From contig NZ_BNEA01000015.1 of the NCBI RefSeq assembly GCF_016860525.1, positions 496,001-560,000 of the forward strand: a DNA stretch of 64,000 bases. The letters are read 5' to 3'. This stretch comes from Streptomyces rubradiris. Lineage in GTDB: Bacteria > Actinomycetota > Actinomycetes > Streptomycetales > Streptomycetaceae. Within the stretch, counting starts at the first letter, position 1; the number at the start of each line of letters is the position of its first letter. A program made the translations under genes and the position numbers. Below, one piece after another: positions 3,731 to 64,000 of the stretch. Below the pieces are notes generated by a model. The model ran no database searches. It saw only the letters and a list, made by a program, of their open reading frames with translations, and was not told the origin of the DNA.

Positions 3731-3760
3731 AAGAGTCGATCCAGTCCAGGAGTGTGCAGC

Positions 3761-20516: not shown

Positions 20517-20656
20517 CCGCGCGGCGTACGGCACGGACCGGCCACGCGGTCGGGTCACGCACCGCCCCGGTCACGATGCCCCTCCTCCCCTCCCTCCTCT
20601 CCGACCGTTCCCTCGGCCGGATCACCCCCGAGACACCCGAAAGGTCCGACCGACCC

Positions 20657-22862: not shown

Positions 22863-22950
22863 GGCGGGCTCCTCGGGAGTGATGCGGTGCGACGGGGCCG
22901 AGGGCGGTGGGGCGCCGGTGCTGCGGCTCGTGTGGGGGGAGGGCAGGGCG

Positions 22951-22979
22951 CGCCGGGCCGGCGTGTGGCCGGCCCGGCG
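22951..22979 (-). terminator. Perfect 12-bp hairpin closing the NRPS-MbtH operon
   Basis: CGCCGGGCCGGC (22951-22962) and GCCGGCCCGGCG (22968-22979) pair completely across a 5-nt loop, 20 nt beyond the MbtH stop codon. It marks the likely 3' end of the biosynthetic transcript. Confidence 0.8.
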
Positions 22980-22999
22980 GGTCCGTGGTGGTACGGCGG

Positions 23000-23203
23000 T
23001 CAGGCGCCGGCGTTCTCCATGCGCTCGCGCAGGCTCTTGGGCCGCATGTCGGTCCAGACCTCGTCGACGTAGGCGGAGCACTCGGCCTCGGTGCCCTCCT
23101 TGCCGACGGGCTGCCAGCCGGCGGGCACCTCGATGTCGACGGGCCAGAGGGAGTACTGCTCCTCGTCGTTGCGCAGGACCTGGTAGCGGGTGTTCTCGTC
23201 CAT
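23000..23203 (-). CDS. MbtH-like NRPS accessory protein
   Basis: 67 residues from ATG 23203, with GAAGGAAG 7 nt upstream. The family pattern is plain: the N-x-E-x-x-x-S-L-W-P block (NDEEQYSLWPVDIEVPAGW), the central Gly (PVGKEGTEAEC), and W-T-D-M-R-P near the end. MbtH-like proteins bind adenylation domains and are needed for folding or activity of many actinobacterial NRPSs. It is 98 bp downstream of NRPS B on the same strand and before the terminator, so it is almost certainly the last gene of the operon and serves both synthetases. Confidence 0.97.
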   Translation of the reverse strand: MDENTRYQVLRNDEEQYSLWPVDIEVPAGWQPVGKEGTEAECSAYVDEVWTDMRPKSLRERMENAGA

Positions 23204-23301
23204 GTCGTCTTCCTTCGTCGTGCGGTGTCCGAGTGGGCGTGCGAGTGTGGATGGTCGCGGGCGGCTGGGTGGTGAGCGGGGGCCGTGGGGGCGGAAGGTC
23301 G

Positions 23302-43212
<19,911 letters not shown>

Positions 43213-43225
43213 GGTCGTCGGATCC

Positions 43226-46200
43226 TCACCGTTCGTCGTGGTCGGGGCCGCCGTACGCGGCGTCTTCATCGTCGGGTCCGCCGTGGGCGGGGTCCGGTCC
43301 GTCACCGCCGTACGCGGCCGCTTCCAGTTCGCTCAGCACCTGTTCCTCCACGAGTTCCGCCAGGGCGGCCACCGTGCGGGAGACCAGGACGTCGCGGGGG
43401 GTGAGCGTGACGCCGAACGCGTCGTTGGCGCGGGAGGCGATGAGCAGGGCGCGCAGGGAGTCACCGCCGAGCAGGAAGTAGTCGTCCTCCGCGCCCACGG
43501 CCGTCTGGAGTGCCTCCTCCCAGAGGGCGGCCAGCGCCTCCTCGGTGGGCGTGCGGGGCGCCACGTACTCCGGCCGCTCCCGCTCCTGCTCGGCCGGTGC
43601 CGGGGCGGGCAGCGCGGCCCGGTCGGTCTTGCCGTTCTCGGTGAGCGGGAAGCGGTCCAGCACCACGAACGCCGACGGCACCATGTACCCCGGCAGCGAG
43701 CGGGCGGCCAGCTCGCGCAGCGCGGCGGCGGTGGGCGGTTCGGCGCCGGGGGCGGTGAGCAGGTGGGCGACCAGCCGCGGCAGGCCCGGCTCGTCCTCGC
43801 GTACGGTCACCACGGCGTCCAGCACGCCCGGATGGCGTACGAGAACCGCCTCGACCTCGCCCGCCTCGATGCGGTGACCGCGCAGTTTCAGCTGGTGGTC
43901 GGTGCGGCCGAGGTAGTGCAGTTCGCCCGCGCCGTCCCGGCGCACCAGGTCGCCGGTGCGGTACATGCGGGTGCCGGGCGGCCCGAACGGGTCGGGCAGG
44001 AAGCGGGCGGCGGTCAGTCCGGGGCGGCCGAGGTAGCCGCGCGCCAACGACGGTCCGCTCAGCCACAGTTCGCCGGGTACGCCGTCGGGGACCGGCCGCA
44101 GCCGGACGTCGAGGACGTAGGCGCCGGTGGCGGGCAGCGGGCGGCCGATGGGCGGCGCGCCGCCGTCCGGCTCCAGCGGGGCGGACCAGGTGGCGACGAC
44201 GGTGGCCTCGGTGGGGCCGTAGGAGTTGACCATGCGGTGGTGCGGGGCCCAGCGGGCGACGAGCTCCGCGCCGCACGCGTCGGCGCCGACGATCAGGGTC
44301 TTCAGATCCGGCAGGGTGCCGGGGGTGTCGGCGGGCAGGGTGGCGAGCGCGGCCGGCGGCAGCAGGGTGTGCGTGACGCGTTCGGTGCGCAGTACGCCGG
44401 CGAGTTCGGCGCCGAGCAGCGGGCCGGGCCGGGGTACGACGAGCCGGGCGCCGTGCGGCAGGGACATGCACAGCTCCAGCACGGAGGCGTCGAAGCTGGG
44501 CGTGGCGAAGGCCAGCACCCGGTCTCCGGCGGCGACTTGGTAGTGGGCTGCCTCGGCCGCGCTGAACGCGGCGAGGCCCCGGTGGGTGACGACGACGCCC
44601 TTGGGGGTGCCGGTGGAGCCGGAGGTGTAGATGACGTAGGCCGGGTCGTCCGGGTCGAGCGGGCGCCTCCGGTCGGCGTCGGTGGGCCGGTGTCCGGGGG
44701 TGTCGTCCGGGGGTGCGGCGAGCAGGGCGGCGATCTCCTTGGCGTCCAGGGTGAGGGCGGGGGCGGCGTCGCGCAGCATCAGGGCGATCCGCTCCTCGGG
44801 GTAGGCGGGGTCCACCGGCAGGAACGCGGCGCCGGACTTGGCCACCGCGAGCTGGGCCAGCACCATCTCCGCCGAGCGGGGCAGCAGCAGCGCGACGAGG
44901 TCACCGGGTCCGGCGCCGCGGGCGATGAGCCGGTGCGCCATCCGGTTGGCCCGGGCCTCGGCCTCGGCGAAGGTGAGGAGCGTGCCGGGGGCGTCGAGCG
45001 CGGGTGCGGTGGGCCACCGGTCGACGGCGGCCTCCACGAGCGCGGGCAGGGTGGCGGCGGGCACCGGGGCGAGCGCGGGCCGGGACGGGCCGTGCAGCAG
45101 CCGTTCGCGGTGCGCGGGCGGGAGCACGTCGAGGTCGTCGAGGCGGGCGGTGTCGTCCGGCGCGGCCAGCGCGTGCAGGGTGTGCAGCAGCTGTCCGGCC
45201 ATCGAGTCGGCGGTGGACTTCTCGAAGTACCGCGGGTCGTAGCCGAGTTCGACGGTGAGCCGGTCGCCGGGCGAGACGACCACGGTGAGCGGGTAGTTGG
45301 TGGCCTCCCGGGCGTCCAGGTCGCGCAGCGCCAGCCCGTGCGTGCCCGCGGTCGTGTCCCCGACCGGATAGTTCTCGAACACCACAAGGCTGTCGAACAG
45401 AGCTGTTCCCGGCGGGAGTTGGGTGTAGGAGTGCAGTTCGCTCAGGGGCAGGTGGTCGTGGCGGCGGTCCTCGGCCCGTGCCTCCTGGAGGGCGCGCAGC
45501 CAGGTGTCGCCGCGGGCGGCGCCGTCGACCTCGGTGCGGGCGGGCAGCGTGGTGATGAACAGGCCGGTGATGGTGTCGGCGCCGGGCAGTCCGGCGGGCC
45601 GCCCGGAGACGGTGGTGCCGAAGCAGACCTCCCGCCGGCCGCTCCACCTCGACAGCAGCAGCGCCCAGGCGCCCTGTACCAGGGTGTTGAGGGTGAGGCG
45701 GTGGCGGCGGGCGAACTCCTGAAGGCTCCGCGTCCGCCCGGTGTCGAGCCGCCGGGACAGCCAGGTGCCGGAGCGGGGGGTGGCGCCGGGGGCGGGCCGC
45801 CGGTCGTACGGCAGCGGGGTGGGGGCGCCGAGTCCGGCCAGGGTGTGGCGCCAGTGTTCCTCGGCGGCGGCGGTGTCGCGGGCGGCGAGCCAGGCGGCGT
45901 AGTCCGCGAACGGCCGGCGCTCTGGCAGCTCGGGCAGCTCGCCCCGGGTCAGGGCGGCGTGCGCGGCCATGACGTCGGACAGGACGTGGAAGACGCTCCA
46001 GCCGTCCAGCAGGACGTGGTGGAAGGTCCACACCACCCGGACCGCGTCCGGGCCGAGCCGGACCAGGGCGAGCCGCAGCAGCGGGGCCCGGTCCAGGGCG
46101 AGGCCCCGGGCCCGCTCCTCGGCGAGCAGCCGCTCCAGCTCCGCCGTGTGCCGTTCGGCCGGCAGCGCGCTCCAGTCGTGCTCGGTGACCGGCAGGGTCA

Positions 46201-46430
46201 CGTTCCGGTGGACGACCTGGAGGGGCACCGGTACGCCGTGCAGGGCGACGGAGGTGCGCAGCACGGGGGTGCGGTCGACCACGTGCCGCCAGGCCGCGGC
46301 CAGCGTCGCGGGGTCGTGCGCGCCGTCGGCCACGAAGGTGATCTGCTCGACGTAGAGGCCGTGTTCGGCCTCGTCCAGGCCGTGCATCACCATGCCGGCC
46401 TGGGTGGGGGTGAGCGGGTAGACGTCCGTG
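43226..46430 (-). other. NRPS module 5: C(DCL)-A-PCP, hydrophobic L residue
   Basis: Pocket D-A-L-L-I-G-S-V-V is identical to A10. C5 ([24 protein letters not shown]) is DCL type after E4. PCP5 is followed only by about 75 residues ending in an acidic Gly/Asp/Pro repeat tail, and there is no epimerase. Confidence 0.8.
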
Positions 46431-49400
46431 ACGCCGGCTCCGTCGCCGACGAGCCGGTCCACTGCCGCCTGGTCCAGCGGGGCGAGCGGGAAGTCGGAGG
46501 GGGTGCGGCCACCCGCGCCGGGTTCGGCACAGTGCCGGATGATCGCGCGCAGTTCCGCCGCCAGCTCGGCCGCCAGCCGGGCCACGGTCTCCCGCCGGTG
46601 CCGCCCGCGCGAGTACGCCCAGGTGAACTCCAGCCGGTCGTCGGTGACTTGGCCGAGGATGTCGAGGAGGTGCGGCCGGTTCGCGGAGCGGTCCATGCCG
46701 CCGGTGAGGCCGCCGTGAGGCGCGTGCAGCAGGCCGCCGGGGGCGGGGGCCGTGTCCGGCCGGCCCAGGTAGTTGAAGCAGACCGGCGGCAGGGCGGGCA
46801 GGTCGCGGCCGGCGGTGGGACGCAGGTGGCGCAGCGCGCCGTAGCCGAGTCCGCCGTGCGGTACGGCCCGCAGGTTCTCCTTGACGGACTTCAGCGCGGT
46901 GCCGGGGCCGGCGTCCCGGGGCACGTCCAGGGCGACCGGGTACATCGCGGTGAACCAGCCGGCGGTGCGGGCCAGGTCGGTGTCCTCGAACAGCTCCTCG
47001 CGGCCGTGGCCCTCCAGGGTCACCGCCACCCGGTCCCGGCCGGTCCACCGGGCCAGGACCCGGCCCAGCGCGGTGAGCAGCACGTCGTTGACGCGGGTGC
47101 GGTACGCCTCGGGCACGTCCTGGAGCAGCCGGCGGGTCTCCTCCGCGTCGAGCCCGGCGGTCACGCTGTCCTCGTCGGCGACGGTGTTCGGGCCGCCGGG
47201 GTTGTCGACGGGCAGCGTGGTGCCGGTGTCCGTCCCCTGCCAGTACGGGAGTTCGCCGTCGAAGCCGCCCGCCTCGGTGTGTGCGGCGAGCCGTCGCGCC
47301 CAGTCCCGGAACGCGGTGCTCTTCGGGGCGAGGGCGGGCCGTCCGCCGTCCCGCAGCGCGCGGTAGGCGGTGTCCAGGTCCTCCAGGACCAGCCGCCAGG
47401 AGACGGCGTCCACGACCAGGTGGTGGGCGGCCAGCAGCAGCACCGGCCGGGCGCCGTCAGCGGGGCGTGCTCCGTCGGCCGGGTGTGCCCCATTGACCGC
47501 GCGTGTTCCGTCGGCCGGGCGGCACAGCGCGGCCCGCAGCAGCGGTCCGCCTTCCAGGTCGAACCCGGCACCGAGGGCCTCGGCCACCGCCGCCGGGTCC
47601 GCCCCGTGGTGCACCTCCAGGTACGGGTCACGGTCGCCGGGCGGCGTGCCGTACTGCCGCCAACTCCCGTCCGCCTGACGTTCGTAGCGCATCCGCAGCG
47701 CGTCGTGGTGCTCCAGTACGACGGCCAGGGCGGCCCGCAGCAGCGTCTCGTCGGGGTCGGCCGCCAGCTCGTGGGCGACCGTCTGGCTGAAGTGGGCGGG
47801 GTCGCCGGTGAGGGTGGACAGCAGCCAGTGCTGTACGGGGGTGAGCGGGGTGTCGCCGGTCACCGGGCCCTGCTCGGCGACGACCGCGGAGACCGGCAAC
47901 CGTTCGGCGGCGGCGGCCAATTCGGCGAGGGTCTGGTGGGTGAACAGGTGCCGTGGGGTCAGCGCGAGACCGGCCCGGCGGGCGGCGGAGACGATGCGGA
48001 TGCCGAGGACGGAGTCGCCCCCGAGCGTGAAGTAGTTGTCGTCGGCGCCGACTTCGGGCACGCCCAGCACCTCGGTCCAGATCGCGGCGAGGGTCCGCTC
48101 GGCCTCGGTACGCGGCGGCCGTCCGGCCGTACCGGTGGCCGGCGCGGCCCACTCGGGCACGGGCAGCGCCCGCCGGTCGAGCTTGCCGGTGGCCCCCAGC
48201 GGCAGCCGCTCCAGCGGGACGACGAGCGCGGGGACAAGGTGGTCGGGCAGACTCCGGGCGAGGAAGGCACGCAGCTCGGCGGGGTCGGGAACCCCCGTAC
48301 GGGCCCCCGGCAGGCCGACCGCGCCGGTCCCCTCGGAGCCGCCGGACATGGCCGACACCGGCGTACCGGGCTCCCCGGAACCGTCATAACCCGGCACGAT
48401 GACGGCACCCGACGCCCCGGAACCGGCAGAACCCGGCACGGTGACCACACCCGCCACCCCCGAACCAGCCGAGCCCGGCCCAGTGACCGCACCCGACGCC
48501 CCGGAACCGGCAGAACCCGGCACGATGGCCGTATCCGGTGCCCCGGAAGGGGTCGTGCCCGGTGCCCCGACAGCGGCAGATCCCTGCACGGTCGCCGCCC
48601 CCGACGCCCCGGGGTCGTCCGCCGGGACCGGCTTGTGGGGCACCACATAGCCCACGAGGCGGCGGTGGCCGGCGTGTTCGATCACCCGGGCCGCCGCCGC
48701 GGCCACGGCCGGGTGGCGGGCCAGCGCGGCCTCGACCTCGCCGAGTTCGATGCGGAAGCCGCGCACCTTCACCTGGTCGTCGCCGCGGCCGAGGTAGACG
48801 AGGTCGCCGTCGGCGGTCCAGCGGACCAGGTCGCCGGTGCGGTACATGCGGCTGCCCGGCGGGCCGAACGGGTCGGGCAGGAAGCGGGCGGCGGTCAGGC
48901 CGGGGCGCCCGAGGTAGCCGCGGGCGACACCGGTCCCGGCGAGGAACAGCTCGCCGGGCACGCCGACGGGCACCGGGCGCATCCGTTCGTCCAGGACGTG
49001 GGCGCGGGCGCCGCCGAGCGGCCGGCCGATCGGCGGGTCCCGGTCCGGGTCGGCCGGGTCGCAGGTGAAGGCGGTGGCGTAGACGGTGGCCTCGGTGGGG
49101 CCGTAGATGTTGCGCACCTCGCTGCCGGGTATGGCGTCGCGGACCCGGCGTACGGTCCGGGCGGGCAGCCCCTCCCCCGCGAGGACGACGGTGTCGGCGG
49201 TGATCCGTACGGCGTCCTCGGCGAGCAGCCGGTCCAGGGCCGAGGGCACCGCGCTGAGCAGTCCGGCCCGCCAGGGCCCGGGGCGCTCGGCGAGGGCCAG
49301 CAGGTCGCGGACGATCTCCACGCAGCCGCCGGACAGCAGCGGCGCGAAGACCTCGAAGACCGACACGTCGAAGTTGAGCGAGGTGGAGGCCACCACGTGG

Positions 49401-52400
49401 TCCAGTCCCCGCCCGGCGAACTCGGCCGCCGCCCAGTCGGTGAGGGCGAGCACGGAGGCGTGGCTGACGACGACGCCCTTGGGGCGGCCGGTGGAGCCGG
49501 AGGTGTGGATGACGTAGGCCGGGTGGCCGGGCAGCAGGGCGGTGTGCCGCTCGTCGTCGCCCACCGGGGTGTCCGGCGCCCCGGTTTCCCCGTCGTCGAG
49601 CAGGATTCGGGTGAAGTCGCCCTCGGGGAGCCGGCCGGCGGTCTCGACGGCGGTGATCACGGCGTCGGGCCGTACGTCGTCGAAGAGGAACGCGACGCGC
49701 TCGGCCGGGTACCGGGGGTCGACGGGCAGATAGCCGGCGCCGCTCTTGAGCACCGCGAGGAGCGCGGTGACCAGGTCGGCGGTGCGGGGCAGGCAGAGGG
49801 CGACGAACCGTTCGGGTCCGGCGCCGGCGGCGATGAGCCGCCGGGCGAGCCGGCTGGAGCGGGCGTCGAGTTCCCGGTAGGTGAGCACGTGGTCGCCGTG
49901 CCGGACGGCCGGGGCGCCGGGGGTGCGCTCGGCCTGCCGGCGGAACGCGTCGGGCAGGGTGCCCCGGGGTGCCTCGGCCGTCCGTCCGCCGAACCGGGCC
50001 ACCAGCGCGCGGCCCTCGGCCGGGTCCAGCAGCGGCAGGTCGGCCAGGCGGCGGTCGAGGCCGGTGGCCATGCCGGTGAGCAGGGTGCGCAGGCTCTCGC
50101 CGAGCGCGGTGACCGTGGTGGTGTCGAAGGCGGCCGGGTCGTGGTCCAGGTGCACGGTGAGCGTGTCGCCGGGCGCGACGACCACGCTGAGCGGGTAGTT
50201 GGTCGGCTCCAGGTCCCGTTCCGGTTCCATGGTGAGGCCGTGCCGGGCCGGCGCGTCCGGGTCGAAGGGGTAGTTCTCGAAGACCACGAGGGATTCGAAA
50301 AGGTTTGTGCCGCCCGGGAGTTCGCTCCAGGACTGGATCTGGGCCAGCGAGACGAAGCCGTGGCGGCGGGCCTCGGACTGGGCGGTCTGGATCTCGCGCA
50401 GCCACTCGGGCAGCGGGCGGGAGCCGTCGACGCGGACCCGGGTGGGCAGGGTGTTGATGAACAGGCCCACCATCGAGGTGACGCCGGGCAGTTCGGCGGG
50501 CCGTCCGGAGACGGTGGTGCCGAACACCACGTCGGTGCCGCCGCCGTAGCGGGACAGCAGCAGCGCCCAGGCGCCCTGGAGCACGGTGTTGAGGGTGAGC
50601 CCGTGGCGCTGGGCGGTCTCCCGCAGCCGGGCGGAGAGGTCCGGGCCGAGGGTCATGCGCACGGTTTTGCAGGAGGAGGTGCGGTGTGCCTCGGCGGGCC
50701 GCCGGTCGCGGGGCAGTTCGGTGGGGGCCTGGAAGCCCGCGAGGGTGGTGCGCCAGTACCGCTCGGCCTGGCCGGTGTCGCGCCCGGCGAGCCAGCGCAG
50801 GTAGTCGGCGAAGGGCTTGCGCTCGGGGGTGTGCGGGCGGCGCCCGGAGGTCAGGGCGGCGTACCGCTCGCACACCTCCTCGAAGACCTGGGCGGCGCTC
50901 CAGCCGTCGAGCAGGACGTGGTGGAAGGTCCACACCATGCGGACCCGGTCGGGGGCCAACCGGATCAGGGTCAGCCGCATGAGGGGCGCGGCGGCGAGGT
51001 CGATCCCCCGCTCGCGGTCCTCGGCGAGCAGCCGGTCGAGTTCGGGTGCGCGGCGCTCGTCGGGCCACGCGGACCAGTCGTGGTGGGTGACGGGCACGGT
51101 GGCCCGGTGCCGTACGACCTGGAGCGGTTCGGGGGTGTCCTGCCAGACCAGGCCGGTGCGCAGCACGGGGTTGGCGTCGGCGGTGTGCTGCCAGGCTTCG
51201 GCCAGCGCGTGCGGGTCGGTGACGCCGGCCAGCACGAGCTGCACCTGGTTGACGTAGGTGCGGCCGGCGGGGTCGAGCAGGCTGTGGAAGAGCATGCCCT
51301 CCTGCATCGGCGTGAGCGGGTAGATGTCCTGCACGTCCCGGCCGTCGCCGGCGACGCGGTCCACGGCGGTCTGGTCGAGCCGGGCCAGCGGGAAGTCCGA
51401 CGGGGTGCGGCCGCCCGCGTCGGGGCGGGCGCAGTGGGCGACGATGCCGCCGAGCGCGTCCAGCATGCCCTCGGCGAGGGCGGTGACGGTCTCCTCGCGG
51501 TGGCGTCCGCCGCTGTAGTGCCAGGTGATCTCCAGCCGGTCGTCCTCGACGCGGGCCACGACGTCCAGCAGGTGCGGCCGCTCGGTGTCCGGTGCCTCCG
51601 CGCCGCCCAGGCCGCCGGGCACCGCCCGGACCAGGGCGGCGTCGTCGGCGGACCAGTCGAAGCGGCCCAGGTAGTTGAAGCTGATGCCGGGTTCGGGGGC
51701 GGCGGTGAGCCGTGGGTCGCGGGCGAGGTGGCGCAGCACGCCGTAGCCGAGTCCCCGGTCGGGTACGGCCCGCAGTTGTTCCTTCACGGACTTCAGGGCG
51801 GCGCCCCAGTCCCCCGCCGCCGGGACGGTCAGGGCGACCGGGTGGAGCGCGGTGAACCAGCCGACGGTGCGGGACAGGTCGACGTCCTCGGCCCACTGGT
51901 CCTCGCGGCCGTGTCCCTCCAGGCCGACGGCGACGGTGGCGCGTCCGGTCCAGTCGGCGAGGACCCGGCCGAGCGCGGTGAGCAGGACGTCGTCCACGCG
52001 GGTGCGGTAGACGCCGGGCACCCGGCGCAGCAGGGCGTCGGTGCGCTCGCGGTCGAGCCGTACGGTCACCTCGCGGATGTCGGCCATGGTGTTGCCGCCG
52101 TCGGAGTCCACGGGCAGCGGATCGGCGCACGCGCGGGCGGTCCGCTCCCAGTGGGGCAGCTGGCCGGTGAGGTCCCTCTCGCGCAGCCGGCGGACCCACT
52201 CGGCCGCGGACGTGGTGCGGGCGGGCAGCCGTACGGGCTCGCCGGCGGTGGCCTGCCGGTAGGCGGTCTCCAGGTCCTCCAGCAGGATGCGCCAGGAGAC
52301 GCCGTCGACCACCAGGTGGTGGGCGACGAGCAGCAGCCGGGCGGGCCCGGCGCCGTCGGCGGTGAACAGGCGGGCGACGAACAACGGGCCCGTTTCCAGG

Positions 52401-55400
52401 ACGAGTTGCGCGTGGGTCGCGGCCGTGACGCCTTCTTCGTCCCGCCGGTCGTGGACTTCCAGGAGTTCTGGGGCGGGGCCGTCGTGGGCGGCGATGTCCT
52501 GGTGCCAGGCGCCGTCGAGACCGTGGCGGAACCGGGCGCGCAGGGCGTCGTGGTGGGTCCACAGCGCGGTGAGGGCGCGCCGCAGGGCGTCCTCGTCCAC
52601 CGGGCCGGGCGTCTCGGCCACGACGGACTGGTTGAAGAAGGCGGGGTGGGCGGGCCGGGCGTCCAGGAACCAGTGCTGGATCGGGGTGAGACCGGCCGGT
52701 CCGGCGACCGGCGCGGTGCCGGTGACGGCGGGCGCGGCGCCGCCGCCCGCGGCGGCCAGTTCGGCCACCGTGGGGTGCCGGAACAGGTCGCGGGGGGTGA
52801 GGGTGAGTCCGGCGGCGCGGGCCCGGGAGACCACCTGGATGCTGAGGATGGAGTCGCCGCCCAGCATGAAGAAGTTGTCGTCCACGCCGACGCGTTCGAC
52901 GCCGAGCAGTTCGGCCCAGATCGCGGCGAGGGTCCGTTCGGTGTCGGTGCGCGGGTCGCGGTGGGTCCGTTCGGCGCCCGCCGCCCAGTCGGGGGCGGGC
53001 AGCCGCCGCCGGTCGACCTTGCCGTTGGCCGTCAGCGGCAGCTCCGGCACGGTGACGAACGCGGCGGGCACCATGTAGTCGGGCAGTGCGGCCGCCAGGT
53101 GGGCGCGCAGCCCGGCGGCGGAGGGCACGTCGGCGCCTTCGGCCGGTACGAGGTGGGCGGCGAGCCGTTTGCGTCCGGCGTCCTCGTACAGGGAGACGAC
53201 GGCCTCGGCGACGGCCGGGTGGGCGGTGAGGCGGGCCTCGATCTCGGCGGGTTCGACCCGGAAGCCGCGGATCTTGATCTGGTCGTCCGCGCGGCCGACG
53301 AAGTGCAGTTCGCCGTCGGCGCTCCAGCGCACGAGGTCGCCGGTGCGGTACATCCGGGTGCCGGGCGGGCCGTAGGGGTCGGCGACATAGCGGGCGGCGG
53401 TCGCGCCCGGCCGGCCCGCGTAGCCCCGGGCCAGCCCCGCGCCCGCGATGTACAACTCACCAGCAATGCCCGGAGGTTGGGGCTGGAGTGCGGCGTCCAG
53501 GACGTAGACGCGGGTGTTGTCCAGGGGACGGCCGATGGGCAGGACGGCGGGCAGCGGGTCGCCGGAGCGGAAGACGCGGCGGGTGGCGAAGGTGGTGGTC
53601 TCGGTGGGGCCGTAGCCGTCCACGACGGTCAGCCCGGGGCAGGCGTCGAGGACCCGGCGGACCACCGCGCCGGGCACGGCCTCACCGCCGGTCCACACCT
53701 CGCGGGCGCCACGCAGGCAGCCGGGGTCCTCCTGGGCGAGCAGCCGGAACAGGCCGGCGGTCAGCCACAGGCAGGTGACGCCCCGCTCGGTGACGGCGCG
53801 GCGGACCTGGGCGGCGTCGAGGCCGGCGGGCGGGGCGAGGACGGCCGTGCCGCCGCGCAGCAGCGGCACCCACACCTCGTAGGTGGCGGCGTCGAAGGCG
53901 TGCGGCGAGTGCACGAGGACCCGGTCGTGTCCGGCGAAGGCCCGGTCCAGGGCGAGCGCGACGACGTCCCGCTGGCGCACCGCGACCCCCTTGGGGGTGC
54001 CGGTGGAGCCCGAGGTGAACATCAGGTACTGGACGTTGTCGGGGTGGACGGTGTGCGGGTGCGCGGGCTCGGCCACGGGTGCCGCCGCGGCGGGTGCGCC
54101 GGATGTGTCGTCCACCCGCAGCACCCCGCCCGTGGGCAGCAGTTCGCGGGCCGTCCGTTCCCGGCCGGCGTCGGTGAGCAGCAGGTCGGCGCCCGCCTCG
54201 GCGAGCATCCGGCGCAGCCGTTCGGCCGGGGCCCTGCCGTCCAGCGGCACGTACACGCCGCCGGTGCGTACGAGGGCCAGCTGGGCGACGATCAGCCCGG
54301 CGGAGCGGTCCATGAGCACGCCGACCGGGCGTTCCGGCCGTACCCCGAGCCCGGCCAGGCGGGCCGCCAACTCACCTGCCTGCTGGTCTAGTTCGCGGTA
54401 GGTGAGGCGGGTGTCCCCGGCGTCCAGGGCCACGGCGCCGGGGGTGCGGCGCACCTGTGCGGCGAAGAGGGCGGCGACGGTGGTGTCGGGCAGGTCGGTG
54501 GCGGTGTCGTTCCAGGCGCGCAGCACCTGCGCGCGGCGGTCCGGGGCGAGCAGCGGCAGCCGGGCGGGCGGGCGGTGGGCGCCGGCGGGCAGGTGGGTGA
54601 GCAGGACGGTCAGGTACTCGGCCATGCGCTCGGCCGTCGCGGCGTCGAACAGCCCGGGGTCGTAGCCGAGCCGCAGGGTCAGCTCTTGGCCCGGGTAGGC
54701 GGTCAGGCTCAGCGGGTAGTTGGTGGTCTCGACGCCTTCCAGGCCGCTGAGGCGCAGCCCGTGGGCGGCGGCGAGGTCGTCGTCGACCGGGTAGTTCTCG
54801 AAGACCACGATGCTGTCGAACAGCCCGGCCCGTTCGGGGAGTTGGGTGAACGCCTTCAGCCGGGTGAGCGGCAGGTGGTCGAAGCGGCGGTCCTCGCTCT
54901 GGTCGTGCTGGAGGGCGCGCAGCCAGTCGAGCAGGGTGCCGTGGCCGGGGACGGTGACCCGGGTGGGCAGGGTGGTGATGAACAGGCCGGTCATGGTGTC
55001 GGCGCCGGGCAGCTCGGGCGGCCGTCCGGCGACGGTGGTGCCGAACACCACCTCGTCGCGGCCCGCCTGCCGGGCCAGCAGCAGCGCCCAGACGCCCTGG
55101 ACCAGGGTGTTCAGGGTGAGGCCGGAGGTCCGGGCCAGCTCCTGGAGCGTCCGGGTGGCGGACGGGGGCAGGGTGCGGCGCACGGCGTGGGTGGACTCGG
55201 CGCGGTGGGCCTCGCGCGGCTCGCGGTCGTAGGGCAGCGGGGTGGTCTCGGTCAGCCCGGACAGGCGGTGGCGCCAGTGCCGTTCGGCCGGGGCGGGGTC
55301 GCGTCGCCGCAGCCAGGCCACGTAGTCCCGGTGCGGCGGGCGGTGCGGGAGGGTGCCGGGGGCGGCCCCGGCGTGGTGGGCGAAGACGTCCGAGAGGACC

Positions 55401-58400
55401 TGGAACATGCTCCAGCCGTCCAGCAGCAGGTGGTGGAAGGTCCACACCACGCGCACGGCGGTCCCGGACAGGCGGATGAGGTACAGGCGTTGGAGCGGGG
55501 CCCGTCCGAGGTCGATGCCCTCGGCGCGGTCCCGGGCGAGCACGTCGTCCAGGCGGGCGCGGCGCTCGTCCTCGGTCAGGTCGCGCCAGTCCAGGTGGGT
55601 GACCGGCAGGTCCGCGTGGCGCGCCACCACCAGCAGCGGCTCGGGCACGTCCTGCCAGACGACCCGGGAGCGCAGCGTCTCGGTGCGGTCGGTCACGTGC
55701 TGCCAGGCGGCGGCGAGGGCGCCCGGGTCGGGCACGCCGTCCAGGACGAAGGTCAGCTGCTGGAGGTAGACACCGCGGTCGTCCTGGGACAGGCCGTGGA
55801 AGAGCATGCCCGCCTGGGTGGGGGTGAGCGGGTACACGTCCGCCACCGCCGCCGGGTCCGGGCCGGTGATCCGGTCGACGGCGGCCTGGTCGAGCCGGGC
55901 CAGCGGGAAGTCGGACGGGGTGCGGCCCGCCACCCCCGGGCGGGTGGCGTACCGGGCCAGGTCGGCGAGCGCGGCGGCGAACCGCCCGGCGAGGTCCGCG
56001 ACCTCTTCCCCGCGTTGCGGCCCGTCGGCGTAGAACCAGGTGAACTCCAGGGCGCCGTCGACTAGTTGCCCGACGACCTCCAGGGCGTGCGGGCGGTCGG
56101 CGGCCGGGTCGGCGTCCAGCTCCAGCGGGCGTACGGTGCCCCGGTAGAGGCCGTCGGGGTCCTGCGGCAGCTCCATCCGCCCCAGGTAGTTGAAGCTGAC
56201 TTGCGCGCCGGGGGCGGGCGGCGCCGCCCCGGGACCGGCGAGCCGGCGCAACGCGTCGTATCCCAGGCCGTGCCGGGGTACGGCGCGCAGCTGCTCCTTG
56301 ACCCGCTTCAGCACGGTGTCCCAGCCGGCGTCCTCGGGGACGGCGAGCGCGACGGGGTACCGGGTGGTGAACCAGCCGACCGTGCGGCTGATGTCCAGCT
56401 CGGGGAAGAGATCCTCGCGGCCGTGGCCCTCGACGTCGACCAGCACCCGGTCCTGGCCGCTCCAGCCGCACAGGGCCCGGCCGAGGGCGCCGAGCAGGAC
56501 GTCGTTGGCCCGGGTGCGGTAGGTGTCGGGCAGGGTGCGCAGCAGCGCCGAGGTGACCTCGGGGCTCAACCGCACGGTGTGGGCGCGCTGTTGGGCGTAC
56601 GTTCCGGCGGGCCCCGTCGGCAGCGCGGGGACGGCCTCGGGGAGGGCCCGCGCCCAGTACGCCCGTTCGTCGTCGAAGCCGCCGTCCGCCGCGTGGGCGG
56701 CGAGCCGGTGGGCCCACCGGCGCAGCGGCGAGGACTTGGCGGGCAGCGCGGCGGCGCCGTCGCGGCCGGTGCGGCGGGCCCGGTAGGCGCGGTCCAGGTC
56801 CTCCAGCAGCAGCCGCCAGGAGACGCCGTCGACCACCAGGTGGTGGACGGCGAGGTGCAGCACCGGGGTCCGGCCGGCTCCGGTGTCGTGCAGCACGGCC
56901 CGCAGCAGCGGCCCTCGGGCGAGGTCGAAGGGCCCGAAGTGCGGGGTGTCGGTCTCCGGTCCGGTGTGGCGGGCCAGGCGGAGGCGGGGCGCCCGTTCCG
57001 CCACCGCCCAGACGGGCCGGCCGTCCGTGCCGTCGGCGGTGAAGCGGGAGCGCAGGGCGTCATGGTGGGCGACCAGGTCGTTCAGCGCGTCCTCGAGCGC
57101 CGCCGGGTCCAGGTCGTCGGGCAGCCGGACGGACAGCGCCTGGGCGAAGTGGCCGGCGCGTGCGGCGGCGTCGAACAGCCAGTGCTGGATGGGGGTCAGG
57201 GGGGCGGTGCCGGTGGCCGCCTGGGGCGCGGGGGCGGCCTCGCGCGGGCCGCCGACCGCGTCCGCGCGGCGGGCCAGGGCGGCCACCGTCTGGTGCTGGT
57301 AGACGTCCCGGGAGGTCAGCGGCAGGCCCTCCTGCCGGGCGCGGGCCACCACCTGGATGCTGAGGATCGAGTCGCCGCCGAGTTCGAAGAAGTTGTCGTC
57401 GACGCCGATCCGCTCCACCCGCAGCACCTCGGCCCAGATCGCGGCGAGCGCGCGCTCGGTGGGCGTGCGGGGCGCGACATGCCGAACCGCGCGCACGGCG
57501 GGCCCGGGGTCGGGGAGCCGGCCGCGGTCGACCTTGCCGTTCGGGCTGAGCGGCAGCGCGTCCAGCACGACGACGGCCGACGGGACCATGTAGTCGGGCA
57601 GTGTGCGGCCCAGGTCCCGGCGCACGGCCTCGGGTTCGGTCCGCTGTCCGGCGGCCGGGACGACGTAGCCGACCAGGCGCCGGTGGCCGTCGCGGTCGGT
57701 GGCCGCCGTGGCCGCGGCCTCGGCCACGCCGGCGCAGCCGCGCAGCGCCTCCTCCACCTCGCCCAGCTCGATGCGGAAGCCGCGCACCTTGACCTGCTGG
57801 TCGGTCCGGCCGACGTACTCCAGCGTGCCGTCGGCGCGGCGGCGCACCAGGTCTCCCGTGCGGTACATGCGCTGCCCCGGCGCGCCGAACGGATCGGCGA
57901 CGAACCGGGCGGCGGTCAGTCCGGGACGGTTCAGGTAACCGCGGGCCAGGCCGCCGCCCCCGAGGTACAACTCACCGGTGACACCGACGGGTTGCGGGCG
58001 CAGGGCGCCGTCCAGGACATAGGCCCGGGTGAGCGCCACCGGGGCGCCGATGGGCGGGGCCTGCTCGGGCGGCCGGTCCCCGGCGAACCAGGCGGTGGCG
58101 TACACGGTGGCCTCGGTGGGGCCGTAGACGTTGGCGACGCGGCAGCCGGGCAGGGCGGCGCGCAGCTCGTGCAGCGTCTGGGCGGGCAGGGCCTCGCCGG
58201 CGAGGACGACGGTGCCGGCGGTGATGGGTGCGGTGCCGCCCGCGATCAGCCGGGAGACGACGGACGGCACCCCGCTGAGCAGCCCGGCCCGCCGTGGTCC
58301 GGTGCCGTCGGCGAGAGCCGGCAGGTCGGCGACCACCTCGACGGTGCCGCCGGCCGTGAGCGGGCAGAGCAGTTCGAAGACGGAGACGTCGAAGTTGAGG

Positions 58401-61400
58401 GAGGTCGCGGCGATCACATGGTCCAGCCCCTCGGCGCCGAACCGCTCCCCCGCCCACCGGGCCAGCGCGGCGACCGTGCGGTGGGTGACCACCACTCCCT
58501 TGGGGCGGCCGGTGGAGCCGGAGGTGTAGATGACGTACGCGGGGTGGTCCGGCAGCAGCGGGCGGAGCCGGTCGGCGTCGGTGAGGTCCGTGTCGGGCCC
58601 CGCCGGGTCGGTGGCGTCCTCCAGGAACAGCGGGTCACAGTCCGGGGGCAGGGCGGCGGCGGTCTCCCGGGTGGCGACGACGAGCGCGGGCCGGGCGTCG
58701 GCGAGCATGAACCGGACCCGCCCGGCGGGATAACCGGGGTCGACGGGGAGGTAGGCGGCGCCCGAGGCGAGTACCGCCCACAGCACGGGCACGAGGTCGG
58801 CGGTGCGCGGCAGGCACAGCGCGACCAGGGCCTCCGGGCCCGCGCCGCGTGCGACGAGCAGCCGGGCCAGCCGATTGGCGCGCCGGGCCACCTCGGCGTA
58901 CGCCAGCCGGTCCGGTCCGCAGATCACCGCCGTACGGCCGGGGGTGCGGGCCGCCTGCGCGTGGAGGAGTCCGGGCAGCGTGGCGGGCCCGGTCTCCCGG
59001 GGCTCGCGGGCGGGCGGGTTCCAGCTGTCCACCAGCGTGTGCCGCTCCGCGGCGGAGAGCATGGGCAGTTCGGCCAGGGTGCGGCCCGGGCCGTCCGCCA
59101 TGCCCTCCAGCAGGCGGTGCAGATGGGCGGTCATCCGGGCCACGGTCGCCGCGTCGAACAGGTCCGTGTTGAACTCGGCGGTCAGGAGCGAGCCGCCGCC
59201 CGGGTCCGGGGTGAACTCCAGGACCAGGTCGAAGCGGGCGGCCGGGCGGGGCAGCGGGTGCTCGGCCAGGCGCAGTTCCCCGGCGAGCGGCGGAACGGGC
59301 AGCGGGCTCTGCTGTACGACGAGCGCCTGGACCAGCGGGGTGCGGCTGGGGTCGCGGGGCGGGGCGAGTTCCTCCACCACCCGGTCGAAGGGCACGCCGT
59401 CGTGGGCGAAGGCGTCCAGCACGGTCGTCCGCATGATCTCCACGAACCGGTCCACGGTGGCCCGCTCGTCCACCTCGCCGCGCAGCACCACCGTGTTGGC
59501 GAAGAACCCGGGCACGTCCTCCAGGTCCCGCCGGCCGCGCCCGGTGGTGACGGTGCCGAACGCGATGTCCCGCTGTCCGGAGTAGCGGGAGAACAGCAGC
59601 GCGGCGGCGCCCGCGAACAGGGTGAACAGCGTGGTGCCGCGCCCGGCGGCCAGGTGGCGCAGCCGGGTCACCAACTCGGCGGGCAGAGTGTGCCGGTGGG
59701 CCGCGCCGGCGGTGGTGCGCACGGCTGGACGCGGCCGGTCCGTGGGCAGCTCCAACTGCTGGAGTCCCGCCAAGTGCCGCTTCCAGTAGGCGAGATCGGC
59801 GGTGTCCGCGTCGCCGGTGCGCTGCCGGCGTTCCCACAGCGCGAAGTCCGGGTACTGCACGGCGGGTTCGGGCAGCCCGGCCGGCTCGCCGGTGGTCTCG
59901 GCGTGGTACAGGGCGGCGAGTTCGCGGGTGAGGATGCCGACCGACCAGCCGTCGGTGACGATGTGGTGCTGGGCCAGGAGGAGTACGTGCTCCTCGGCGC
60001 CCAACCGGACGAGCAGGGCCCGGGTGAGCGGGCCGGCCGCCAGGTCGAAGGGCCGCTCCAACTCCTCGGTGAGCAGCGCCTCGACGGCTTCCTCGGCGTC
60101 CGGAGCGCCGGAGAGGTCGGCCGTCCGCAGCGGCAGCTCCGGTTCCGGCGCCACCCGCTGGACGCCCTGGCCGTCGGCGGTGGCGAAGGTGGTGCGCAGG
60201 GAGGCGTGGCGGGCCGCGAGCCGGTGCAGGGAGCGGCGCAGCGCGTCCGCGTCCAGGGCGCCGCGCAGCCGCAGGGCCACGCCGGTGTTGTACTCGGTGC
60301 CGCCGCCGGAGAGGTCGTCCAGGTACCACAGCCGCCGCTGCGCGCTGGACAGCGGCAGGGCGCCCTCGGCCGGGGCCGGCGGGATCGGCTCCGATGCCGC
60401 GGCGGCCGACGGGTCGGCGAGCAGCGGGGCGAGGGCGGCGACGGTCCGCGCGGTGAACACGTCCCGCAGGGTCAGCCGTACCCCCAGCTCGTCCCGGACC
60501 CGGGCGAGCACCCGGGCGGCGAGGAGGGACTCGCCGCCGAGGTCGAAGAAGTCGTCGGTCACCCCGACCTCGTCGACACCCAGCACCTCGGCCCAGATCC
60601 CGGCGAGCACCCGCTCCCGCTCCGACCGGGGCGCCACCCGCCCGGCCGCGGCCGCACGTTCCGGCGCCGGTAACGCCCGCCGGTCGATCTTGTGCTGCGG
60701 GGTGAGCGGCATCCGCTCCAGCACCACGACGACGGCGGGCACCATGTGCGCGGGCAACAGACCGGCCACGGCGGCACGGAGAGAGCCGGGGTCCAGCGAC
60801 TCGACGGGACTCAGCGGTTCGGCGAGGCGGTCCGGGGCGACGGGATTACGGGACTCGGCGGAGTCGGTCGGGGCGGCGGAGGCAGCCGGATGGGCGGAGT
60901 CGGACGGGGCGGCGGAGCCGGCCGGCTCGGCAAGGTCGGCCGACTCGGTGGCGTCGGCCGGGGCAGCGGTGTCGGCCTGCTCGGCGAGGTCGCGGGGCCC
61001 GGCGGAGCCGGTCAGGATGGCGAAGTTGGCCGGCTGGGCAGCGTCGGCCAGGGTGGCGGCATCACGCGGCTCAACAGAGTCGGCCCGGACGGCGGCATCA
61101 CCCGGCTCGGCAGAGTCGGCCCGCCCAGCGGCGGTCAGGGCAACGGAGTCGGCTCGGACGGCGGCGTCGGCTCGGTCGGTGACACCACGCGGCTCGGCAG
61201 CGTCGGCCAGGCCAGCGGCGTCATCCGGCTCCATGGAGTCGGTCGGCTCGGCGGAGTCGGACGGCGCGGCCGAGTCGGCCCCTTCCGCGGTGTCGGACGA
61301 CGCGCTGGGTGGCGGCTGTTGTGCCGGGGTGACGTAGGCGACGAGGCGCTGGTGGCCCGGGGTGTCCTCGCGGACCACGACCACCGCCTCGCCGACCGCC

Positions 61401-62734
61401 CCGCCGCCCGCGCGCCGCAGGGCCGCCTCGATCTCGCCGGGCTCGACGCGGAAGCCGCGGATCTTCACCTGCCGGTCCAGCCGGCCCAGGAACTCCAGTT
61501 CCCCGTCGGCGGTCCGGCGCGCCCGGTCCCCGGTGCGGTACAGCCGGGCGCCGGGCGCGCCGAAGGGGTCGGCGACGAAGCGGGCGGCGGTCAGGCCCGG
61601 CCGGCCCAGGTACCCCCGGGCCACCGCGTCGCCGCCGACGAACAGCTCCCCGTCCACGCCGGGCGGCACGGGCCGCATCGCGGCGTCCAGGACGTACACC
61701 CGCGTGTGCGGCAGGGCACCGCCGATCGTCGGGGTGCCCCGGCCGGCGGTGAGCGGCCCGGTCCAGGTGGCGACGATGGTGGCCTCGGTCGGACCATAGG
61801 AGTTGATCATGCGGCGGCCGGGCGCCCAGCGGTCCACGAGCCCCGCCGGGCAGGCCTCGGCGCCCACGATCAGCGTGCGCAGATGACGCGCGGTGCCCTG
61901 CGCGGGGTCGGGCAGGGTGGCCAGCGCGGCGGGCGGGATCAGGGCGTGGGTGATGCGGTACTCGTCCAGGACCGCCGCCAGTTCGTCGCCGAGCCACGGC
62001 CCGTGCGGCGGTACGACCAGCGTGGCGCCGCACAGGACGGACACGCACAGTTCCAGCACGGAGGCGTCGAAGCTCGGCGAGGAGAACTGGAGCACCCGGT
62101 CGCCGGGACCCACCGCGTACCGTTCGGCGGCGGCCGAGGTGAAGCCGCCCAGGCCGCGATGGGTGACCGTGACGCCCTTGGGGGTGCCGGTGGAGCCGGA
62201 GGTGTAGATGACGTACGCCGCGTGGTCGGCGCCGGCCCACCGGTCGGCGCGGGCCCGCCGGTCGGTGCCGTCCTCGGCGGCCGGCGGCTCGCCCGTCTCC
62301 AGCAGTTCGCGGACCCGGCGCGGATCGTCGAGGGTGACGGCGGGCCCGGCGTCGGCGAGCATCAGGGCCCGGCGCTCGGCGGGGTAGGCCGGGTCCACGG
62401 GCAGGAAGGCGGCGCCCGCCCGCGCGACGGCCAGCTCGGCCGCGATCAGCTCCATGGAGCGCGGCAGGACCAGGGCCACCACCCGGTCCGGTCCGGCCCC
62501 CCGCCGTACCAGGTGTGCTGCCAACCGCTCGGCACGGGCGGCGAGTTCGCGGTAGGTCCAGGTCCGCTGTCCGTCGGTGAGGGCCGGTGCGTCCGGGGTG
62601 CGGGCCACCCAGGCGGTGAACAGCTCGCCGAGCGTCGGATACGCCGGTGCGGCACCGCTTTCCGGCAGGCCGGCGGCGGGGCCGGCCTGCGGCAGGGAGG
62701 ACGCCGGAGCGGGCTTGTCGTGCAGGTCCGTCAT
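43226..62734 (-). CDS. NRPS A: five modules (1-5), initiates with A-PCP
   Basis: 6502 residues from ATG 62734 ([13 protein letters not shown]), with AAAGGA 9 nt upstream. The frame is open to 63229, but that stretch is Arg/Pro-rich spacer without homology. Approximate residues: A1 30-690, PCP1 735 (GGES); C2 793, A2 1250-1735, PCP2 1788, E2 1845-2260; C3 2297, A3 2750-3240, PCP3 3294, E3 3345-3760; C4 3802, A4 4260-4855, PCP4 4907, E4 4960-5380; C5 5435, A5 5890-6370, PCP5 6425. No starter C domain is present, so the nascent peptide has a free N-terminus. All catalytic C and E histidines are intact. Repeat insertions occur in A1 and A4. The acidic C-terminal tail may dock NRPS B. It is encoded downstream of the stand-alone thioesterase. 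Confidence 0.97.
47450..47527 (-). repeat. Short repeat array inside epimerase domain E4
   Basis: About 26 residues made of PADGARP-like units ([21 protein letters not shown]) interrupt E4 just before the strand leading to [10 protein letters not shown]. Other E domains of the line have only a few residues at this loop. Confidence 0.75.
48290..48645 (-). repeat. 42-bp tandem repeats inserted in A4 between motifs A8 and A9
   Basis: About 118 residues separate the strand GYVVPHKP from [12 protein letters not shown], where sister domains have 10-20. The core is three to four 14-residue units beginning PGSAGSG (42 bp each), flanked by looser Gly/Ala/Pro/Ser sequence. Confidence 0.85.
51333..55847 (-). 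other. NRPS module 3: C(DCL)-A-PCP-E, predicted D-Val
   Basis: Pocket D-A-Y-W-W-G-G-T-F is Val-like and closely matches A9. C3 ([24 protein letters not shown]) is DCL type after E2, and E3 carries [10 protein letters not shown]. Confidence 0.8.
55848..60358 (-). other. NRPS module 2: C(LCL)-A-PCP-E, small D residue
   Basis: Pocket D-V-F-S-V-A-V-V-Y, one change from A4; a small residue is inferred from the filled pocket. C2 opens [13 protein letters not shown] with [12 protein letters not shown] type, matching the un-epimerised first residue. E2 has [10 protein letters not shown]. Confidence 0.75.
60359..62734 (-). other. NRPS module 1: A-PCP initiation module, hydrophobic L residue
   Basis: Pocket D-A-L-L-I-G-S-I-V, nearly that of A5 and A10. 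There is no C or formyl/acyl starter domain before it. The A10 motif reads PQHKIDR, keeping the catalytic Lys but losing the usual Asn-Gly. The domain carries a repeat insertion of about 175 residues before motif A9. Confidence 0.8.
60800..61325 (-). repeat. Degenerate repeat insertion in A1 between motifs A8 and A9
   Basis: About 175 residues of Ala/Asp/Ser/Glu/Pro repeats (units such as [20 protein letters not shown]) sit between [10 protein letters not shown] and [13 protein letters not shown]. The DNA shows recurring GGCTCGGCGGAGTCGG-like blocks on the plus strand. The encoded segment is acidic and likely disordered. Confidence 0.85.
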
Positions 62735-63244
62735 GGGTGAAGTCCTTTGGAGAGCGGGGCGATACGGCGCGGGGCGACCCCGGTGGGCCCCGGGGCGGGG
62801 AAACGGCGGGTCACCGGAGGTGCGTGACGGAGCGGGCTGTGCGTGGCGGGCGGCGGTGTCCGGGAGCGGTGACCGGTGTCCGCGAACGGTGCCTGGTGGC
62901 CTGAAGAGATGCCTGGTCTCGGCGACGAACGATCCCGTCACACCGGACCGATCCGAACCGCGACAGACCGGCGGCCAAGACGACGACCACGGGACCGCGG
63001 GACCACGGGGCGGTGGGACCACGAACGGAGCCGGGCCCCGGACCCATGGCAGCCACCGGCTCCCCGCCGGCCGTCCCCGCGAACCGGCCACACCAGCGCG
63101 ACCGAAGCGGGACTCGAACCGGAACCGGAACCAGGACTCGAAACCGCGACCGGCACAGCCCCGGAGCCGGACTCGAACCGGCACGGCACCGCTACCGGTT
63201 GACACCGGCACCAGCACCGGCACCGGCACCGGCGGCGCCCCGTC
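62735..63244. other. 510-bp spacer between thioesterase and NRPS A
   Basis: No gene is evident. The half next to the thioesterase is simple-sequence rich: CCGGAA and CCGGCACC runs (about 63118-63235) and three copies of GGACTCGAA(A)CC at 63110, 63134 and 63169. The half next to NRPS A probably holds its leader, and possibly a promoter, but no convincing -35/-10 pair was found. Confidence 0.5.
63110..63235. repeat. Simple-sequence and T-arm-like repeats upstream of NRPS A
   Basis: GGACTCGAACC occurs at 63110-63120 and 63169-63179, with a one-base-longer copy at 63134-63145. Its complement GGTTCGAGTCC equals the usual tRNA T-arm sequence. A CCGGCACC-type run follows at 63191-63235. There is no complete tRNA cloverleaf. 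Confidence 0.6.
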
Positions 63245-64000
63245 TCAGCCGTCGTCGGTCCGGCGTGCCGTGCGTCCGGAGATCTGTACCCGGTCGATCC
63301 GGCCGGTGGCCGGATCGCGGTGGAACCGTCCGCCGGGTTCGAGCCGCCCGGTGGCCGGATCGCGCAGATCGCAGGTCAGGTCGGCGTAACAGACCAGCGG
63401 GAGGGGCAGGTCCCCGTCCACGGAGAGGGCCGGCGCGCCGTCGGGACCGGGTGCGACGCGGTAGGTCGTGGTGCCGTTGCGGTACGTGCCCGCGCAGCCG
63501 GGCAGGTCGACGGGCCGCCCCCGGTCCACGGCGTGCCCCCGGTCCGCGGTGTGCGGGCCGGCCGGCACCGGGATGCCGGTGAGCCGGGTCACCTCCTCGG
63601 CGAGGTCGCGCCACAGCGCGGTCGCGGACCCGGAGTTGCCGGTGAAGGCGACCACGACCCCGCTCTCCGGGTCCGCCCGCAGATGGCAGGACGTGCCCTG
63701 GGCGTTGCCGTCGTGGCCGCACCAGATCCGGTCGTCCCGCCGGTACAGGGCCAGTCCGGGGCCCCAGCCGTCGGCCAGCGTCCCGGGGCGGGCGGCGCTC
63801 TCGGGCCGGCGCATCTCCTTGGCGACGGCGGGCGGCAGCAGGTCCGAGCGGCCGGTGAGCGCGTTGCCGAACGCGACCAGGTCCAGGGCGCTCGCGAGCA
63901 GCGCGCCGGCCGGTGCCTCCAGTGGTGCCAGGTTCTGCCGGGCCGGACGGGCCTGCCCGGTCGCGGTGTTGACGGCATGTCCGGCGGCCACGGAGCGGGC
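63245..64000 (-). CDS. PBP-type (SurE-like) stand-alone thioesterase, N-terminus beyond window
   Basis: The last 252 residues of a serine beta-lactamase/penicillin-binding-protein fold enzyme are visible. GALLASALDLVAFGNALTG is the usual helix after the active-site omega region. WCGHDGNAQGTSCHLR supplies the His-x-Gly motif that replaces the Lys-Thr-Gly of beta-lactamases. From about residue 165 of the visible part, a beta-rich lipocalin-like domain follows (LPGCAGTYRNGTTTYRV ... GRIDRVQISG). The Ser-x-x-Lys and Tyr motifs must lie beyond 64000. In SurE, WolJ and related enzymes this architecture cyclises peptides released from TE-less NRPSs that end in an epimerase, exactly the situation downstream. 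A plain esterase or D-peptidase is the alternative. Confidence 0.82.
   Translation of the reverse strand, partial: ARSVAAGHAVNTATGQARPARQNLAPLEAPAGALLASALDLVAFGNALTGRSDLLPPAVAKEMRRPESAARPGTLADGWGPGLALYRRDDRIWCGHDGNAQGTSCHLRADPESGVVVAFTGNSGSATALWRDLAEEVTRLTGIPVPAGPHTADRGHAVDRGRPVDLPGCAGTYRNGTTTYRVAPGPDGAPALSVDGDLPLPLVCYADLTCDLRDPATGRLEPGGRFHRDPATGRIDRVQISGRTARRTDDG

Follow-up and report, generated by a model that had tools for sequence, protein, structure and literature searches.

What does a nonribosomal peptide synthetase (NRPS) line without a thioesterase domain make, and what releases its product? The question is raised by a gene cluster of Streptomyces rubradiris (genome of 9.05 Mb in 22 contigs) in a stretch of 64,000 nucleotides, positions 496,001 to 560,000 of contig NZ_BNEA01000015.1, which we call the window and whose first letter is position 1. 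The genes lie on the minus strand in the order P450, TE, NRPS1, NRPS2 and mbtH: a cytochrome P450 gene beyond the window (64737-65945); the gene of a putative stand-alone cyclase of the penicillin-binding protein (PBP) type and SurE family, here TE for thioesterase (63245..64000 in the window, continuing to 64636; 463 amino acids); NRPS1 with modules 1-5 (43226..62734); NRPS2 with modules 6-10 (23302..43212); and the gene of a 67-residue MbtH-like protein (23000..23203; PF03621, 79.3 bits). An earlier note, made from the letters of the window alone, had described a PBP-type thioesterase, two five-module NRPSs and MbtH on a single strand, and all of these parts were found. On the basis of gene content, domain order, catalytic motifs, fold match and conservation, we put the probability that the product is a head-to-tail cyclic decapeptide, closed by the stand-alone SurE-type enzyme, at roughly 85%.

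Ten modules and a probable stand-alone release enzyme

The NRPSs were scanned as ten module pieces, and motifs were read in addition. Every module contains one adenylation (A) domain and one carrier (peptidyl carrier protein, PCP or T), condensation (C) domains are present in modules 2-10, and modules 2, 3, 4, 6, 8 and 10 have a second condensation-type stretch; module 4 has three, its epimerisation (E) domain having been matched in two pieces. NRPS1 reads A-T / C-A-T-E / C-A-T-E / C-A-T-E / C-A-T and NRPS2 reads C-A-T-E / C-A-T / C-A-T-E / C-A-T / C-A-T-E, confirming that the line begins A-PCP, ends PCP-E and has no TE domain. The E marker TIGR01720 was matched in modules 2, 3, 4, 6 and 8. 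For module 10 it was not among the best 25 of 59 matches listed, and this E domain is assigned from the second Condensation stretch, the E motif and its position in the E group of a domain tree. The carrier serine is present in all ten carriers, and the E motifs HHxxxD and EGHGR in all six E domains.

That tree, built from the nine C and six E domains, places C2, C6, C8 and C10, whose preceding carrier has no E domain, in one group (support 0.986) and C3, C4, C5, C7 and C9, which follow an E domain, in another (support 1.000). These are exactly the groups that six working E domains predict, which argues for the configuration L-D-D-D-L-D-L-D-L-D. The C motif is also split, HHxxTDGWS (once HHxxADGWS) against HHxxLDGWS, both here and in the six relatives that were fully read (Streptomyces seoulensis, S. 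eurythermus (G190), S. xanthochromogenes, Catenulispora pinistramenti, Streptantibioticus parmotrematis and genome G163). With module 1 lacking an E domain and module 10 having one, the chirality predicted earlier, L for the first residue and D for the last, was upheld. The note had named a TE elsewhere in the cluster as a possible refutation; the thioesterase family PF00975 was not found within 460 kb on the contig.

The Ser-x-x-Lys and Tyr motifs of TE, which the earlier note expected beyond position 64000, were both found there. The enzyme carries Ser81 and Lys84 (Ser-x-x-Lys), Tyr168 and Asn170 (Tyr-Ser-Asn), Gly244, His308 (His-Asp-Gly) and Arg455, and no variation was seen at these seven positions among 29 aligned sequences (TE itself and 28 of the 120 relatives listed). 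SurE and Ulm16 have the full signature, and none of ten serine hydrolases encoded in the same genome does. A sequence search of the PDB gave SurE at 209.8 bits and Ulm16 at 168.9, with the next match at 103.8 and the DD-peptidase R61 at 79.9. Foldseek placed four SurE chains and Ulm16 at ranks 1-5 (E 1.3e-31 to 4.7e-27), the match covering the whole length including the C-terminal domain, which has eight strands in the structure model (residues 383-459) and which we count as lipocalin-like. The description of TE as a His-Asp-Gly serine hydrolase with a lipocalin-like C-terminal domain therefore stands, with SurE and Ulm16 as its closest solved structures.

An unrooted tree that took 10 of the 15 other serine hydrolases of the genome put these ten together behind a branch of 0.999, and TE on the side of SurE, Ulm16 and the relatives. 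The grouping foreseen for TE was thus recovered with respect to SurE, Ulm16 and the ten hydrolases; WolJ, MppK, named DD-peptidases and class C beta-lactamases, some of which had also been proposed for comparison, lie outside this tree. Gly244 aligns with Gly235 of SurE, which according to a review shapes the pocket for the C-terminal D residue (PMC11735501).

The predicted decapeptide and competing products

The A-domain codes were read by alignment at what we take to be the code positions of GrsA. In NRPS1, all on the minus strand, module 1 (60368..62734) has the code DALLIGSIVK (Trp-like, L), module 2 (55847..60367) DVFSVAVVYK (Ala-like, D), module 3 (51338..55846) DAYWWGGTFK (Val-like, D), module 4 (46433..51337) DVFSVAIVYK (Ala-like, D) and module 5 (43226..46432) DALLIGSVVK (Trp-like, L). 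In NRPS2, on the same strand, module 6 (38530..43212) has DTEDMGFVDK (basic, Orn-like, D), module 7 (35317..38529) DFWNVGMVHK (Thr, L), module 8 (30829..35316) DTENLGMVDK (basic, Orn-like, D), module 9 (27748..30828) DAFWWGGTFK (Val-like, L) and module 10 (23302..27747), with the terminal E domain, DALLIGSVVK (aromatic, D). The Thr of module 7 and the Val of modules 3 and 9 are presumed assignments. A paper on the gene cluster of Streptomyces sp. H-KF8 is the source of Ala for modules 2 and 4, Orn for modules 6 and 8 and an aromatic residue for modules 5 and 10 (PMC10788856); by likeness of code, the residue of module 1 should equal that of modules 5 and 10. A literature search on six code prefixes gave no match, although the short form DVFSVA occurs in piperazate A domains (DVFSVAAYAK and similar). 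Piperazate was set aside for modules 2 and 4, as the eighth and ninth code letters are VY and not YA; it is also disfavoured by the two strong ornithine/lysine N-oxygenase matches being distant (one 4.6 Mb off, the other on another contig) and by the Ala given for these positions in the H-KF8 paper.

These readings suggest that NRPS1 and NRPS2, with MbtH helping the A domains, would assemble ten residues in the order L-D-D-D-L-D-L-D-L-D. The most plausible sequence is Trp - D-Ala - D-Val - D-Ala - Trp - D-Orn - Thr - D-Orn - Val - D-(Tyr or Trp). Following epimerisation the chain would end on the carrier of module 10, and the SurE-type enzyme would accept it on Ser81, assisted by Lys84, Tyr168/Asn170 and His308, with the D residue sitting in the pocket beside Gly244. 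Attack by the N-terminal L residue would then close a head-to-tail macrolactam, and the adjacent P450, where present, would oxidise the peptide or one of its residues. The substrate identities, cyclisation over hydrolysis, and the role and timing of the P450 are the parts of this scheme that we infer. Plain ring values were computed as 1205.65 (Trp, Trp, Tyr) and 1228.66 (three Trp).

The PDB neighbours of the P450 include 4GGV, which is HmtT of himastatin and makes hexahydropyrroloindole from Trp (PMC10741444). The match of the P450 to the TxtE model is weak (100.2 bits; cut-off 500); nitration is unlikely here, a nitric oxide synthase match being absent from the genome.

Several observations weigh against the cyclic decapeptide. 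The strain's decapeptide is predicted from genes, and no product has been seen. The structure model of TE is of moderate quality (mean pLDDT 70.2, with 85 residues below 50). Modules 5 and 10 share one code, yet the H-KF8 paper gives Trp for one and Tyr for the other, and that paper also reports a tandem mass spectrometry ion of m/z 1448.752 (PMC10788856), above the plain ring values computed here, which would belong either to a decorated peptide or to another compound. The tail of the module 3 code is FWGV[TA]FK, rather than WWGGTFK, in 6 of 30 GTDB family loci read, so the product is not identical across the family; the module 5 code of genome G582 is DALLAGCVVK.

One alternative is that TE mainly hydrolyses and that the true product is a linear decapeptide, as for surugamide F, whose thioester gave mostly linear product with SurE in one study (PMC7459860). 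We regard this as improbable, since the Gly244 pocket and the L and D ends fit the needs of SurE-type cyclisation and no other cyclase candidate lies within the conserved core. A DD-peptidase or a beta-lactamase-like resistance enzyme, with release left to something else, is a very remote prospect: Pfam gives Beta-lactamase (PF00144) alone and NCBIfam only weak class C and related matches (best 62.4 bits against a cut-off of 415), but the SurE and Ulm16 match is full length and includes the C-terminal domain, TE stands apart from the ten hydrolases of its own genome, and its gene adjoins the NRPS genes in all six relatives.

Modules without an adenylation domain in relatives

Although both A2 and A4 are intact in the window, 11 relatives have a module that lacks its A domain and retains an intact carrier. 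NRPS1 was mapped with hidden Markov models in 45 genomes, the source genome included, in which modules 2 and 4 could both be seen. Five of them (G457, G515, G557, G582 and G007) have no A2 or a gutted one, and another five (G444, G504, G512, G529 and G533) have no A4; 35 of the 45 have lost neither and none has lost both. Catenulispora pinisilvae (L035), in which A2 is missing and module 4 is out of view, is the eleventh loss genome. Each genome is counted once (G515 is also L038, and G007 is L042); the A-loss relatives are filed as L035, L042, L083, L085, L087, L088, L089, L090, L091, L092 and L094. A3 and A5 are present in 45 of 45 genomes and A1 in 44, the remaining genome, G189, having a partial A1 match and no carrier 1 found. 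A6-A10 are present in all 20 genomes with NRPS2 in view; in G438 and G565 the last E domain runs beyond the fetched stretch, and in G450 (L113) NRPS2 is split over two frames with the last module separate.

Assembly error was rejected as the cause of the losses: 6 of the 10 loss genomes that were mapped consist of 1-4 contigs, A2 mostly leaves a mutated remnant instead of none, and a similar clean A4 deletion recurs in five genomes of two genera. In a tree of the NRPS1 domains other than A2 and A4, with some weak nodes, A2 loss appears at five places and A4 loss at one or two. Among the single-module trees, that of carrier 4 plus E4 unites the five genomes without A4 at 0.994, which makes a single A4 loss most likely, and in that of C2 alone G557 and G457 pair at 0.824. 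The gap left by A2 has its 3' edge within ten residues in 5 of 6 A2-less genomes, and the 5' edges vary. The trees would fit some four or five losses of A2 and one of A4; there may instead have been fewer original A2 deletions, spread by recombination. A count of at least six independent losses was lowered on the single-module trees. The chance that six independent losses all fall on two of the five A domains is 0.004, and that for five losses is 0.01.

What, then, charges the carriers that have lost their A domain? The reading that we favour, and consider likely though well short of secure, is that this family allows one Ala-activating A domain to load the carriers of two modules on the same protein; A2 and A4 would hence be redundant, and different lineages have deleted either of them while keeping the C, carrier and E domains of the module. 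Judging from the domain maps, the remaining A domain of the loss strains probably serves two carriers; the window, with both A domains intact, may represent the redundant ancestral state, and cross-loading may occur there too. The surviving partner has an Ala-like code in 10 of 10 cases where it is in view. Sharing of an A domain between modules has an experimental precedent in capreomycin, in which the A-less module of CmnI is charged by an A domain of another module, CmnA-A1 (PMC12400406). There the two modules are on separate proteins, whereas here two same-code A domains are on one protein and one or the other is lost in relatives. Our literature search did not find such one-or-other loss of two same-code A domains in print.

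Two points count against sharing. A1 and A5 have near-identical codes and were never lost in any map, so a shared code alone is insufficient. The absence of a double loss is, by count, not significant (0.54 for the 45 genomes and 0.098 for a 13-genome clade).

The first of two rivals is that the A-less module is skipped, giving a nonapeptide. Skipping of inactive modules is known in other NRPSs, and a skip after A4 loss would still present the next C domain with a D residue. If module 2 were skipped, however, a C domain that groups in the D-type clade would receive an L residue. In addition, the carrier serine, the E motifs and the next C domain are retained in all 11 A-less modules, which are conserved about as in intact relatives. 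When the loss genomes (L035 excluded) were compared with four intact relatives, the mean identity of carrier 4 was 87.1 for A-less modules against 86.3 among the four, that of E4 77.9 against 79.7, that of carrier 2 81.7 against 83.8 and that of E2 74.1 against 77.5. We consider skipping unlikely.

We hold it equally doubtful that the A-less modules depend for charging on a separate A protein or a different NRPS instead of the surviving A domain of NRPS1. Helpers of that sort exist for syringomycin and albicidin (PMC8949500), and 4 of 10 loss genomes have more A domains, 58-59% identical to A2, in other large NRPS frames. However, the fetched cluster stretches of the ten loss genomes contain no A domain besides those of the two NRPSs (frames of at least 250 amino acids). 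Moreover, the best A2 match among the matches listed and scored is the surviving NRPS1 A domain in 10 of 10, and in six genomes the next one listed is at most 54% identical.

Conservation, known relatives and meaning

All six fully read relatives share a core of the P450 (67-97% identical), TE (60-94%), MbtH (84-100%) and both NRPSs, with the same domain line; Catenulispora differs by the absence of A2 alone. The full set of ten codes was legible in five of these relatives, and nine codes in Catenulispora, the differences amounting to one or two residues. Other flanking genes recur mainly in S. eurythermus. A neighbouring P450 gene occurs in 38 of 44 GTDB loci and is missing from the other 6. 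Of the 7 loss strains for which the 2 kb upstream were read, 2 showed no P450 there, which makes it a common but dispensable tailoring gene.

Relatives of TE occur in 44 of 392 genomes of the genus at E <= 1e-100 (own included) and, at E <= 1e-120, in 42 of 394 genomes of the family and 3 of 394 of the class, all three of the same genus as the source. At this threshold they also occur in the genus of G504 (10 of 70 genomes) and in that of G444 (4 of 14). The NRPS line was read in part of the 44 genomes with a TE relative; in G184 (L126), whose TE relative is 49% identical, this line was not seen in the 20 kb downstream.

The cluster is of a kind already known. Surugamide SurE and SurABCD (PDB 6KSU, 6KSV) likewise combine a stand-alone PBP-type cyclase with a TE-less line that ends in E and has an L first and a D last residue, although TE is ~35% identical to SurE, SurE serves two lines and the residues differ. 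Ulm16 of ulleungmycin (PDB 8FEK) has the same fold and signature residues as TE; its substrate is a hexapeptide (PMC11735501). SurE itself is reported to make the decapeptide cyclosurugamide F (PMC11735501; PMC7459860), SurE-linked TE-less NRPSs of 4-10 modules were described in 166 organisms from 1421 actinobacterial genomes (PMC7459860), and SurE lines are put at ~15% of sequenced Streptomyces strains (PMC13285481).

An apparently matching cluster, that of H-KF8, has also been published. Its biosynthetic gene cluster #1.8 is described as having two NRPS genes with ten A domains, one of which is not part of a complete module, as well as six E domains and an adjacent TE, as here, and a cyclic decapeptide is proposed with D residues at positions 2, 3, 4, 6, 8 and 10, again as here (PMC10788856). 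The residues Ala, Val, Ala, Orn, Orn and Val fit our codes; the likeness is to the published description. The authors write of a "TE domain", do not use the term penicillin-binding protein-type and suggest nitro-Tyr and sugars, whereas the present genome has no match to a nitric oxide synthase. Searches of the open-access literature showed no matching cyclic decapeptide other than that of H-KF8 among the papers listed. Together, the SurE-made decapeptide, the SurE lines of up to ten modules and the H-KF8 cluster weaken the earlier expectation that the decapeptide is likely to be new.

The longest open frames of the two NRPSs (23302-43305 and 43226-63229, minus strand) are 6667 amino acids each. 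The likely starts are ATG 62734 for NRPS1 (ribosome-binding site AAAGGA; ~6502 amino acids) and ATG 43212 for NRPS2 (GTGAGGA; ~6636), which makes the equal lengths a longest-frame artefact. Between the TE stop and the NRPS1 start lie ~510 nt with no evident gene, and a single transcript for the whole cluster is therefore putative. The cluster closes with a GC-rich, terminator-like hairpin without a T run (22946..22984), found directly 3' of mbtH in all six relatives as judged by eye. The hairpin had been called perfect; its 17-nt arms are 88% complementary, and perfect pairing is confined to an inner core of 12 bp. Two A domains carry in-frame tandem repeats in their C-terminal loops, both on the minus strand: an insert of 18/36-bp units in module 1 (60856..61304) and a repeat of 42-bp units in module 4 (48373..48548). 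The module 1 insert ranges from none to ~280 amino acids (27 readable of 44 loci), and 5 of the 6 relatives have no insert in either module.

Downstream of mbtH are genes for an FAD/4Fe-4S oxidase (16908-19952), an isochorismatase-fold protein (20420-21241) and a GNAT acetyltransferase (22344-23081); the isochorismatase gene recurred in S. eurythermus and the oxidase gene did not, the acetyltransferase falling outside that comparison. Outside the conserved core, L001 12091-17800 holds two large ATP-binding cassette (ABC) transporter genes; the first encodes a C39 peptidase domain as well, as in bacteriocin export. A ZTP riboswitch is found at 3654-3734 (63.6 bits against a gathering score of 39).

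The loss of one or the other A domain offers natural material for testing if an A domain is able to serve a module far off on its own NRPS protein, and A sharing bears on the evolution and engineering of such lines. The cyclase is a candidate tool for larger rings. The codes are nearly the same across Streptomyces, Streptantibioticus and Catenulispora, which suggests that the peptide is a natural product conserved over a long time, and its structure and role would be worth having.

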